Source: Aquabacterium humicola
GTDB lineage: Bacteria > Pseudomonadota > Gammaproteobacteria > Burkholderiales > Burkholderiaceae_C
Length of the DNA: 64,000 nt
NCBI RefSeq assembly: GCF_030167915.1
Contig: NZ_JARGNB010000012.1
Coordinates: forward strand, 1-64,000
Direction of reading: 5' to 3'
The position numbers and the translations under genes are program-made. The stretch's first letter is position 1; the number at the start of each line of letters is the position of its first letter. This document shows positions 59,050 through 63,346 of the stretch, piece after piece. A model generated the notes under the pieces. That model was given only the letters and a program-made list of their open reading frames with translations. It was not told the DNA's origin and did no database searches.

Positions 59050-60402
59050 ATGGACGCCCTGCTGCTCGCCCGCATCCAGTTCGCTGCCAACATCAGCTTC
59101 CACATCCTGTTCCCGACGATCAGCATCGCGCTGGGCTGGGTGCTGCTGTTCTTCCGCTGGCGCTGGTTGTCCACGCATCAGACCGGCTGGCTGCTGGCCT
59201 ATCGCTTCTGGACCAAGGTGTTCGCGCTGACCTTCGCGCTCGGCGTCGTCAGCGGCATCGTGATGAGCTTCCAGTTCGGCACCAACTGGCCGGGCTTCAT
59301 GCAGAAGGCCGGCAACATCGCCGGGCCGTTGCTGGGCTACGAGGTGCTGACGGCCTTCTTCCTCGAGGCCACCTTCCTGGGCGTGATGCTGTTCGGCCAC
59401 GAACGGGTCGGCGAACGCATGCACCTGCTGGCGACCTTCCTGGTCGCCTTCGGCACCACGCTGTCCGCTTTCTGGATCCTGAGCCTGAATTCCTGGATGC
59501 AGACGCCGGCCGGCCATCAGATCATCGACGGCGAGTTCCACGTGCGCTCGTGGCTCGAGGTGATCTTCAACCCGTCGTTTCCGTACCGCCTGACGCACAT
59601 GCTGCTGGCCTCGGCGCTGACGGTGGCCTTCCTGGTCGCCGGCCTGTCGGCGTGGCAGGTGCTGCGCGGCACCACGAACCGCTCGACGCCGAAGGCGCTG
59701 CGCACCGGCCTGACGATGGCCGCGCTGCTGGTGCCGCTGCAGATCCTCGTCGGCGACCTGCACGGGCTGAACACGCTGGAGCACCAGCCGCAGAAGATCG
59801 CCGCGATGGAAGGCGTGTGGAAGACCGAAGCCGGCGCGCCGCTCCTGCTGTTCGCCTGGCCGAACGAGGCCGAGCGCCGCAACGACTACGCGCTGGGCAT
59901 CCCGCGCGGCGCGAGCCTGATCCTGAAGCACGACGCCAATGCGGTGATCCGCGGCCTCGACGAATTCCCGAACGCCCATCCGCCAGTGAAGCCGCTGTTC
60001 TTCGGCTTCCGCATCATGGTCGGCATCGGCGTGCTCATGCTGCTGGCGGGCTGGACCGGCCTGGTGCTGCTGTGGCGCCGCGCGTGGCTGCCCGACCGCC
60101 TGCCGCGACCGCTGCTGTGGACGCTGGCGGCGATGAGCTTCTCGGGCTGGCTGGCGACGCTGGCCGGCTGGTACGTCACCGAAATCGGCCGCCAGCCGTG
60201 GATCGTGCAGGGGCTGCTGCGCACCGCCGACGTCGCGTCGACCCAACCCGCGCCGACCATCGCGCTGTCGCTGGCGCTGTACCTGATCGTCTATGCCTTC
60301 CTGCTGCTGGCCTACATCGGCGTGCTGCGCTACATGGCCGAAAAGCCCGAGGCCGTGCTGCTCGCGCCGCAAGCCCCGGTCAAGAGCCGCGCCTTCGCCT
60401 GA
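59050..60402 (+). CDS. cydA: Cytochrome bd-type ubiquinol oxidase subunit I
   Basis: A 450-residue inner-membrane subunit with about nine helices that binds hemes b and d/b. His18, the RLTHML histidine and the FRIMVG methionine are the likely heme ligands, and GYEVLTAFFLEATFLG holds the conserved glutamates. The quinol loop is short (HGLNTLEHQPQKIAAMEG onwards), as in CioA-type cyanide-insensitive oxidases. No small CydX-like gene follows. Confidence 0.95.
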   Translation: MDALLLARIQFAANISFHILFPTISIALGWVLLFFRWRWLSTHQTGWLLAYRFWTKVFALTFALGVVSGIVMSFQFGTNWPGFMQKAGNIAGPLLGYEVLTAFFLEATFLGVMLFGHERVGERMHLLATFLVAFGTTLSAFWILSLNSWMQTPAGHQIIDGEFHVRSWLEVIFNPSFPYRLTHMLLASALTVAFLVAGLSAWQVLRGTTNRSTPKALRTGLTMAALLVPLQILVGDLHGLNTLEHQPQKIAAMEGVWKTEAGAPLLLFAWPNEAERRNDYALGIPRGASLILKHDANAVIRGLDEFPNAHPPVKPLFFGFRIMVGIGVLMLLAGWTGLVLLWRRAWLPDRLPRPLLWTLAAMSFSGWLATLAGWYVTEIGRQPWIVQGLLRTADVASTQPAPTIALSLALYLIVYAFLLLAYIGVLRYMAEKPEAVLLAPQAPVKSRAFA

Positions 60403-60418
60403 TCAACGGAAGTCCACC

Positions 60419-61414
60419 ATGAACGACGCCACCTGGATGCCCGTCGCCTTTCTCGGCCTGATGGGGCTCGCGATGCTGCTGTACGTCGTGCTCGACGGCT
60501 TCGACCTCGGCGTCGGCATGCTGCTGCGCCATGCCGACGATGCGCAGCGCGACCTGATGATCGGCAGCCTGGGCCCGTTCTGGGACGCCAACGAGACCTG
60601 GCTGGTGCTGGGCATCGGCATCCTGCTGATCGCCTTTCCGAAGGCGCATGGCGTCGTGATGGGCGCGCTGTACCTGCCGGTGGCCTTCATGCTGATCGGG
60701 CTGATCCTGCGCGGCGTGGCCTTCGACTTCCGCGTCAAGGCGCCCAGCGGGCACAAACAGCTGTGGACCCGCGCCTTCTTCGCCGGCAGCGTGATCGCCG
60801 CGGTCGCGCAGGGCTGGATGCTGGGGCGCTACATCACCGGCTTCGCGGACGGCTGGACGGCGGACCTGTTCGCGGCGGCCATTGCCGTGACGCTGCCGGC
60901 GGCTTATGTGCTACTGGGCGCGTGCTGGCTGATCCTGAAGACCGAAGGGGAACTGCAGAAGCGCGCCGTGGCCTGGGCCAAGCGCGCCTGGCCGGCGATG
61001 GTGCTGGGCATCGCGCTCGTCTCGATCGCCACGCCGGTCGTCAGCGCCACGGTGCGCGACCGTTGGTTTACTCTGCCCGGCTTCATCGGCCTGCTGCCGA
61101 TCCCGCTGTCGACCGCCGCCGCGCTGCTCGGCGTGCGTGCGCTGCTGAACTCGCAGCGCATCCTCGGCAAGCTGTGCTGGCTGCCGTTCACGCTGGTGAT
61201 CGGCGTGTTCGTGATGGGCGCGCTGGGGCTGGCGTACAGCCTGTACCCGTACGTCGTGATGGACCGGATGACGGTGTGGCAGGCGGCCAGCGCGCCGGCC
61301 TCGCTGGCGGTGATCCTGGCCGGCTGCGCGGTCACGGTGCCGGCGATCCTCGGCTACACGGTCTATTCGTACCGCGTGTTCCGCGGCAAGGCGACGGTGC
61401 CCAGCTACGCCTGA
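60419..61414 (+). CDS. cydB: Cytochrome bd-type ubiquinol oxidase subunit II
   Basis: A 331-residue subunit with about nine membrane helices that partners subunit I. The DGFDLGVGMLLRH segment near residue 27 and GPFWDANETWLVLG are family signatures. It follows cydA by 16 bp with a clear ribosome binding site. The pair supports respiration at low oxygen or in the presence of cyanide-like inhibitors. Confidence 0.95.
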   Translation: MNDATWMPVAFLGLMGLAMLLYVVLDGFDLGVGMLLRHADDAQRDLMIGSLGPFWDANETWLVLGIGILLIAFPKAHGVVMGALYLPVAFMLIGLILRGVAFDFRVKAPSGHKQLWTRAFFAGSVIAAVAQGWMLGRYITGFADGWTADLFAAAIAVTLPAAYVLLGACWLILKTEGELQKRAVAWAKRAWPAMVLGIALVSIATPVVSATVRDRWFTLPGFIGLLPIPLSTAAALLGVRALLNSQRILGKLCWLPFTLVIGVFVMGALGLAYSLYPYVVMDRMTVWQAASAPASLAVILAGCAVTVPAILGYTVYSYRVFRGKATVPSYA

Positions 61415-61603: not shown

Positions 61604-63346
61604 ATGCGCCTTCAGCTCACTTCCGCCTTGATCGCCCTCGCCTTCAGCGCCCCCGCGCTGGCGGGCCCCGTCACCGACGCGATGATCCGCGACGACGCCC
61701 GCACCGGCGGCGACGTGCTGTCCTGGGGCCTCGGCACCCAGGGCCAGCGCTACTCGCCGTTGAAGCAGGTGACCACCGCCAACGTGCAGCGCCTCGTGCC
61801 GGCATGGGCCTTCTCGTTCGGCGGCGAGAAGCAGCGCGGCCAGGAATCGCAGCCGGTGATCCACGACGGCCGCATGTTCGTCACCGCGTCGTACTCGCGC
61901 CTGTTCGCGCTCGATGCGAAGACCGGCGCCAAGCTCTGGAAGTACGAGCACCGCCTGCCCGATGGCGTGATGCCCTGCTGCGACGTGATCAACCGCGGCG
62001 CCGCGCTCTACGACAAGCTGGTGATCTTCTCGACGCTCGACGCGCAGCTGGTCGCGCTCGACCAGGCCACCGGCGACGTCGTGTGGAAGGAGAAGATCGA
62101 TGACTACGCCGCGGGCTACTCGAACACCGCCGCGCCGATCATCGCCAACGGCCTGGTGCTGACCGGCGTCTCGGGCGGCGAGTTCGGCGTCGTCGGGCGT
62201 GTCGAGGCGCGCGACGCGAAGACCGGTGCGCTGGTCTGGTCGCGGCCGACGGTCGAGGGCCACATGGGCCACACCTACGACGCCGACGGCACCGCGAAGG
62301 ACAACGGCATCACCGGCACCACCAACGCCTCGTGGCCGGGCGACCTGTGGAAGACCGGCGGCGCGGCCACCTGGCTCGGCGGCACCTACGACGCGAGCAC
62401 CGGCCTCGCCTACTTCGGCACCGGCAACCCGGCGCCGTGGAACAGCCACCTGCGCAAGGGCGACAACCTGTACTCCTGCTCGACGGTGGCCATCGACGTC
62501 AAGACCGGCAAGATCGTCTGGCACTACCAGAACACGCCGAACGACGGCTGGGACTTCGACGGCGTCAACGAGTTCGTCACCTTCGACATGGACGGCAAGC
62601 GTGTCGGCGGCAAGGCTGACCGCAACGGCTTCTTCTACGTCAACGATGCGAAGACCGGCGCGCTGCTGAACGCCTTCCCGTTCGTGCGCAAGATCACCTG
62701 GGCCAGCAGCATCGACCTGAAGACCGGCAAGCCGAACTTCGTCGCCGCCAACCGCCCCGGCGACCCGACCGCCGGCGACGGCAAGAAGGGCCAGAGCGTG
62801 GTCGCGGCGCCGTCCTTCCTCGGCGGCAAGAACCAGATGCCGATGGCCTACTCACCCGATACGAAGCTGTTCTACGTGCCGGCCAACGAATGGGCGATGG
62901 AGATCTGGAACGAGCCGATCGCCTACAAGAAGGGCGCGGCCTACCTGGGCGCCGGCTTCACGATCAAGACGGTCGCCGACGACCACATCGGCGCGTTGCG
63001 CGCCGTCGATCCGAAGAGCGGCAAGATCGTCTGGGAGGTGAAAAACGGCGCGCCGCTGTGGGGCGGCGTGCTGACCACCGCCGGCAACCTGGTGTTCTGG
63101 GGCACGCCCGAAGGCTTCCTGAAGGCCGCCGACGCGAAGACCGGCCAGGTGGTCTGGCAGTTCCAGACCGGCTCGGGCGTCGTCGCGCCGCCGGTCACCT
63201 GGCAGCAGGACGGCGAGCAGTACATCAGCGTCGTGTCCGGCTGGGGCGGCGCGGTGCCGCTGTGGGGCGGCGAGGTGGCCAAGAAGGTCAACTACCTCGA
63301 GCAGGGCGGCATGGTGTGGGTCTTCAAGCTGCCGAAGGCCTCGTGA
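61604..63346 (+). CDS. PQQ-dependent alcohol dehydrogenase, lanthanide-type signature
   Basis: A 580-residue periplasmic quinoprotein with a signal peptide of about 20 residues and an eight-bladed propeller of repeated tryptophan-docking motifs. The vicinal cysteine pair C125-C126 contacts PQQ. The catalytic Asp317 lies in [12 protein letters not shown], and Asp319 follows two residues later, the extra ligand seen in lanthanide-using XoxF, ExaF and PedH enzymes. No cytochrome c domain is fused. Substrates may be methanol or longer alcohols and aldehydes. An XoxF-type versus PedH/ExaF-type assignment needs a tree. Confidence 0.88.

Follow-up and report, generated by a model that had tools for sequence, protein, structure and literature searches.

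The window, by which we mean the whole 64,000-nucleotide stretch of Aquabacterium humicola DNA that was analyzed, carries near its end an intact open reading frame with an ATG at 61604, a stop codon at 63344 to 63346, and 580 encoded amino acids. The protein matched TIGR03075 with 749 bits against a cut-off of 480. The following features were assigned to this gene.

61604 to 63346, plus strand: PQQ alcohol dehydrogenase, PedH/ExaF type, 580-aa precursor (TIGR03075; best solved relative, 6zcw)
61604 to 61663, plus strand: probable signal peptide, first 20 residues (read by eye)
61976 to 61981, plus strand: Cys125-Cys126 vicinal pair (alignment); a disulfide between vicinal cysteines is described for this PQQ dehydrogenase family in an excerpt of PMC12997753
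62180 to 62182, plus strand: Glu193, metal ligand, equivalent to PedH Glu199 (alignment; ligand list in an excerpt of PMC11845868)
62426 to 62428, plus strand: Asn275, metal ligand, equivalent to PedH Asn281 (alignment; same ligand list)
62552 to 62554, plus strand: Asp317, catalytic Asp, equivalent to PedH Asp323 (alignment; PMC11845868, excerpt)
62558 to 62560, plus strand: Asp319, lanthanide-ligand Asp, equivalent to PedH Asp325 and to a Ser of ExaA (alignment and tree; PMC11845868, excerpt)

W-D-F-D comprises residues 316 to 319 (codons 62549 to 62560), and the precursor numbering of Asp317 and Asp319 in an earlier note on this DNA was thus exact. The note's assignment of a lanthanide-site Asp was also borne out, since PedH (6zcw) and XoxF have their lanthanide-ligand Asp at the position aligned with Asp319, where the calcium enzyme ExaA has Ser. 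The aligned metal-ligand set is E/N/D/D in the window protein, PedH, and XoxF alike and E/N/D/S in ExaA. Like the PedH/ExaF type, the protein has both the Glu and Asn ligands and an extra Asp two residues past the catalytic one, and it lacks the Ser or Thr that the calcium-type ExaA, PedE, and Mdh2 enzymes have at the Asp319 column. Gly192, adjoining the ligand Glu193, is the PedH-group residue.

The window ends 654 bases past the gene. The sequence beyond it was read from locus L009 on contig C4, from which the C4 positions below were converted. The first genes past the window comprise one whose product matches an outer-membrane barrel weakly and below cut-off and genes for a GST, a glyoxalase-family protein, and a TctC-type protein. 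Homologues of PedA1A2BC and pqqABCDE begin 2.3 kb beyond the window end, and further candidate partners were found on contig C40.

C4 66270 to 67082, minus strand: PedC, TIGR03861 (320 bits; cut-off, 241)
C4 67079 to 68251, minus strand: TIGR03863 match (364 bits, below the cut-off of 414; E value, 7e-109)
C4 68244 to 69176, minus strand: TIGR03866 match (288.7 bits, narrowly above the cut-off of 287.3)
C4 69239 to 69973, minus strand: TIGR03864 match (303.3 bits, narrowly above the cut-off of 302.25)
C4 69967 to 71136, minus strand: pqqE (PqqE above cut-off)
C4 71138 to 71416, minus strand: pqqD (PqqD above cut-off)
C4 71413 to 72192, minus strand: pqqC (PqqC above cut-off)
C4 72189 to 73124, minus strand: pqqB (PqqB above cut-off)
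near C4 73181 to 73279, minus strand: PqqA-like peptide (E-x3-Y motif)
C40: PedF cytochrome, TIGR04494 (198 bits; cut-off, 122)
C40: PedG-like binding protein, its gene overlapping the PedF gene (weak SBP_bac_3 match; PedG by position)
C40: ExaC, NF050026 (969 bits; cut-off, 900)
C40: sigma-54 activator, together with the PedF, PedG-like, and ExaC genes

The PedA1A2BC-type transporter was recognized with three of its four models above cut-off, two of them barely, and TIGR03863 below. According to an excerpt of PMC6839425, PedA1A2BC aids lanthanide-dependent growth in Pseudomonas putida. Both PQQ biosynthesis genes and a PedF-type cytochrome are thus present in the genome. The remark that the region has no visible xoxG/xoxJ partners was correct within the 64-kb window but not for the genome, where likely partners are encoded shortly after the window end and on a further contig; it reflected the position of the window edge, because the PedA1A2BC and pqqABCDE homologues start only beyond it. 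The view of a gene without partners was dropped, since sequence past the window (pedABC and pqq homologues) and the genome search (PedF) supplied candidates.

Directly upstream, on the same strand, the window carries a cytochrome bd-type oxidase pair (59050 to 61414) whose subunit I is short (450 aa). This pair and a MarR-type regulator were considered as partners and rejected; neither had a match in any of 94 relative loci (short flanks), so we claim no tie of either to the gene. Lanmodulin EF hands carry Pro. An EF-hand scan, in which no lanmodulin was recognized, yielded a 97-aa protein whose two EF hands lack this Pro and a longer EF-hand protein.

The association between transporter and enzyme was examined across this genome and 59 relatives, 60 in total. 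PedC was above cut-off in 18 genomes, every one of which had at least one Asp-type homologue; of the remaining 42, 9 had one (Fisher p = 5e-9, with kinship between genomes ignored). Genome G035, one of the 42, was counted as lacking an Asp-type homologue, its match being 143 residues at a gene end that do not cover the metal site. A PedH-type gene was present in 15 of the 60 genomes, this one included, and 11 of these 15 had PedC above cut-off; in 6 of the 11 (G000, G003, G007, G014, G015, and G017), both genes were on one contig, at most 14 kb apart. The four without PedC above cut-off were G019, G032, G036, and G038, with sub-cut-off matches in G036 (151 bits) and, directly beside the alcohol dehydrogenase gene, in G038 (131 bits). 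In the three genomes whose homologues were all of the Ser or Thr type (G018, G024, and G029), PedC was never above cut-off. A tight operon is disfavored, since just 12 of the 94 relative loci (short flanks) had a match to this PedC at ≥60% identity, two more matching at 30 to 32%.

Eight loci from the genus and family of the window genome (L027 to L034) encode a separate Asp-bearing PQQ dehydrogenase family, about 42 to 43% identical to the window protein and mostly with the motif NDPYDYDATEV. PedC was above cut-off in 7 of their 8 genomes (not G011), and this family is possibly another lanthanide enzyme.

We then asked about a calcium-type twin. All 14 candidates in this genome were scored, and at E ≤1e-50 no PedE/ExaA-type homologue was found. 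The only other homologue at that threshold was a type II quinohaemoprotein on contig C12 with WDFTSTQ and one CXXCH; a gene that by eye resembles a TonB-dependent receptor lies directly after it on the opposite strand (L197, 8379 to 10502). Four further PQQ-propeller matches were scanned for a missed dehydrogenase, and none reached the TIGR03075 cut-off: one was BamB, two were propeller-repeat proteins, and one, left unclassified, was a distant propeller protein of 554 aa (L004; 90 bits versus 480), whose best dehydrogenase-like solved match scored 54 bits.

Ser- or Thr-type homologues were present in 5 of the 15 PedH-bearing genomes (G000, G012, G014, G015, and G019). Piscinibacter sakaiensis (L042) and Methylibium sp. 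Root1272 (L056) each combine a Ser-type gene with an Asp-type gene at a single locus, resembling the pedE/pedH pair. One haem-motif protein (L206; G017, C183, 6500 to 8900; one CXXCH) reads WDFDAVQ, with Asp in the lanthanide column, whereas the other haem-bearing rows have Thr there. A modest new point suggested by residue identity is that 9 of the 13 PedH-bearing genomes that are at least 90% complete, this genome not among the nine, had only Asp-type homologues (E ≤1e-50), a count that includes several Asp-type enzymes from other families and to which calcium quinoproteins outside the family are invisible.

Conservation of the Asp319 column was evaluated in 179 distinct homologue rows binned by identity to the window protein. 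Asp was present in 140 of 140 rows with at least 60% identity; between 50 and 60% there were 17 Ser, 3 Asp, and 1 Gly (n = 21), between 40 and 50% there were 8 Asp and 2 Ser (n = 10), and below 40% there were 4 Asp and 4 Thr (n = 8). Among the best 80 of 237 named GTDB loci, from genera including Variovorax, Ramlibacter, Rhizobacter, and Cupriavidus, all 80 had Asp, 79 by the motif WD[FY]D and L051 by alignment. Given the invariance in these two sets, Asp319 is not a chance residue. A PedH-group relative with 57% identity and an otherwise full-length frame (L183; G610, C2, 150000 to 152700) has all four metal ligands altered (Glu to Asp, Asn to His, and both Asp to Gly) and Ala in place of the Arg of DRNGFF; it may be an "empty" quinoprotein that serves a different function.

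Among solved structures, the window protein matched 6zcw with 803 bits, 6zcv with 801, ExaA (1flg) with 671, and the XoxF structures 6dam and 4mae with 363 and 361. MxaF has Ala at the second position and an MxaI partner; the 1w6s chain, which we take to be Methylorubrum extorquens MxaF, scored 287 bits versus 803 for 6zcw. The latter is PedH (PMC11845868, excerpt), and from its near-identical alignment we take 6zcv to be a PedH variant. Local alignment gave identities of 65% to PedH, 60% to ExaA, 44% to XoxF2 (4mae), and 41% to XoxF5 (6dam).

The earlier note had suggested placing the protein by alignment and tree; with PedH, ExaA, XoxF2, and XoxF5 as references, it grouped with PedH and not with ExaA. 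The 110-row tree was built by a quick method with SH-aLRT support only, a midpoint root, and several long branches flagged, and ExaA stood in for PedE in a reference set without ExaF, PedE, or MxaF. The window gene fell inside a 72-row PedH group (SH-aLRT 97; 71 Asp and 1 Gly) and, within it, a 12-row all-Asp subset (support 96) with Variovorax, Curvibacter, Pelomonas, and Rhizobacter rows. The Ser rows formed one separate 20-row group with ExaA (support 100). PedH, ExaA, and the window gene together fell within a group of 92 rows (support 100) that included neither XoxF reference. Besides column 319, 24 diagnostic columns separated the groups, each at least 85% conserved within 51 Asp rows and within 20 Ser rows; the window's closest kin are absent from this set, because the Asp rows used are 55 to 74% identical to the window protein. 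The window protein agreed with the PedH group at all 24 of these columns and with the Ser group at none. As judged from these comparisons, the enzyme is of the PedH/ExaF type and not XoxF, because it is 65% identical to PedH versus 44% to XoxF2.

An enzyme that takes calcium or a lanthanide according to supply, with merely better kinetics on the lanthanide, would fit a genome in which no PedE-type twin was found, and PedH appears able to coordinate calcium without rare earths in an excerpt of PMC11845868. However, PedH is reported to require a lanthanide in PMC12997753 (excerpt), and the PedH-group residues at all 24 columns also speak against such bifunctionality, which we consider improbable. 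Far less probable still is a calcium-dependent ethanol or methanol dehydrogenase of the ExaA, PedE, or Mdh2 type carrying the Asp by coincidence. In its favor, ExaA retains 60% identity to the window protein, and metal tolerance may stray from the residue rule: in an excerpt of PMC10409515, a Ser-type enzyme retains 60 to 80% activity in 10 mM lanthanides, so a single residue is not an absolute metal rule. Nevertheless, the tree sets the window gene outside the all-Ser group, no diagnostic column carries the Ser-group residue, and the window protein matches the Asp-type gene of Methylibium sp. Root1272 at 82% versus 53% for its Ser-type gene. That strain is described as mdh2 possessing (PMC7065363, excerpt), its Ser-type gene is presumably mdh2, and the tree, the identities, and this comparison led us to reject an Mdh2 identity. 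A XoxF-type methanol dehydrogenase, which would have the same four ligands, was rejected as scarcely credible on the basis of the identities (44% and 41% versus 65%) and of the position of both XoxF references in the tree.

We strongly predict that the window enzyme uses a lanthanide. The rare-earth-dependent alcohol oxidation anticipated by the earlier note gains support from the alignment, the tree, the 24 columns, and the adjacent putative PedA1A2BC-type transporter. We propose that the gene product would act in the periplasm as a PedH/ExaF-type PQQ alcohol dehydrogenase, in which Glu193, Asn275, Asp317, and Asp319, together with PQQ, would hold a trivalent light lanthanide. The lanthanide would polarize PQQ, and short and aromatic primary alcohols would be oxidized to aldehydes. 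Electrons would pass to the PedF-type cytochrome c550 encoded on C40, and the aldehyde would then be oxidized by ExaC. The nearby pqqABCDE genes would supply PQQ, and the adjacent ABC system would import the lanthanide. From the observed ligand residues, phylogenetic group, and neighboring genes, we infer the metal, the substrate, the electron route, and the transport role, and we hold this PedH/ExaF lanthanide reading as a whole, from enzyme to import, to be very probably correct. The co-occurrence of PedC with Asp-type homologues also speaks for it. Counting against it are the reported calcium coordination by PedH and lanthanide tolerance of a Ser-type enzyme, the sub-cut-off TIGR03863 score, the weak PedG-like match, the four PedH-bearing genomes lacking PedC above cut-off, the scarcity of PedC-like matches in the short flanks of relative loci, and the failure of the EF-hand scan to reveal a lanmodulin.

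This kind of enzyme is already known, and the window gene is an ordinary member. Excerpts from the literature tally 12 ExaF/PedH enzymes in a set of 30 genomes, with the majority found in Methyloversatilis (PMC6028718), and point to a wide distribution of these genes through a survey cited in PMC11845868 (further cited literature, PMC11996626 and PMC5487730). None of the papers listed by literature searches, mostly judged by title, was recognized as characterizing this Burkholderiales enzyme. Sphaerotilus hippei DSM 566 (L055) has a PedH-type gene whose product shares 82% identity with the window protein; the excerpted text of PMC13300288 discusses XoxF and Mdh2 for this strain and leaves ExaF unmentioned. 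Rare-earth alcohol oxidation of the PedH type, for which P. putida is the best-studied host, would thereby extend to a large Burkholderiales group, and the window genome has the predicted transporter and cofactor genes in place for it. It is possible, though we lean against it, that soluble PQQ alcohol oxidation is strictly rare-earth dependent in many relatives lacking a calcium-type twin, with a quinohaemoprotein fallback in a few. If so, rare-earth supply would limit alcohol use where the calcium backup is truly absent, and this genome and a few kin would fall back on a type II quinohaemoprotein in place of PedE, which would make theirs a different form of the rare-earth switch.

Compared with known systems, XoxF2 (4mae) and XoxF5 (6dam) share the metal ligands of the window protein but are distant in the tree, at 41 to 44% identity. 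The calcium enzyme ExaA of Pseudomonas aeruginosa (1flg) shares the vicinal cysteines and 60% identity but has Ser at the Asp319 column and belongs to a separate tree group, none of whose 24 diagnostic residues occur in the window protein. ExaF of M. extorquens AM1 falls in the same ExaF/PedH group by published naming only (PMC6028718, excerpt); PedG- and PedF-like genes flank ExaF (PMC12997753, excerpt) but not the window gene. In contrast to P. putida KT2440, the window genome yielded no PedE-type calcium twin and has its pedF, pedG-like gene, and exaC on another contig. PedH of that strain (6zcw) is nevertheless the closest counterpart, with 65% identity, identical ligands, and a shared tree group, and both genomes encode a PedF cytochrome and carry pqq genes and a PedA1A2BC-type transporter close to the dehydrogenase gene.
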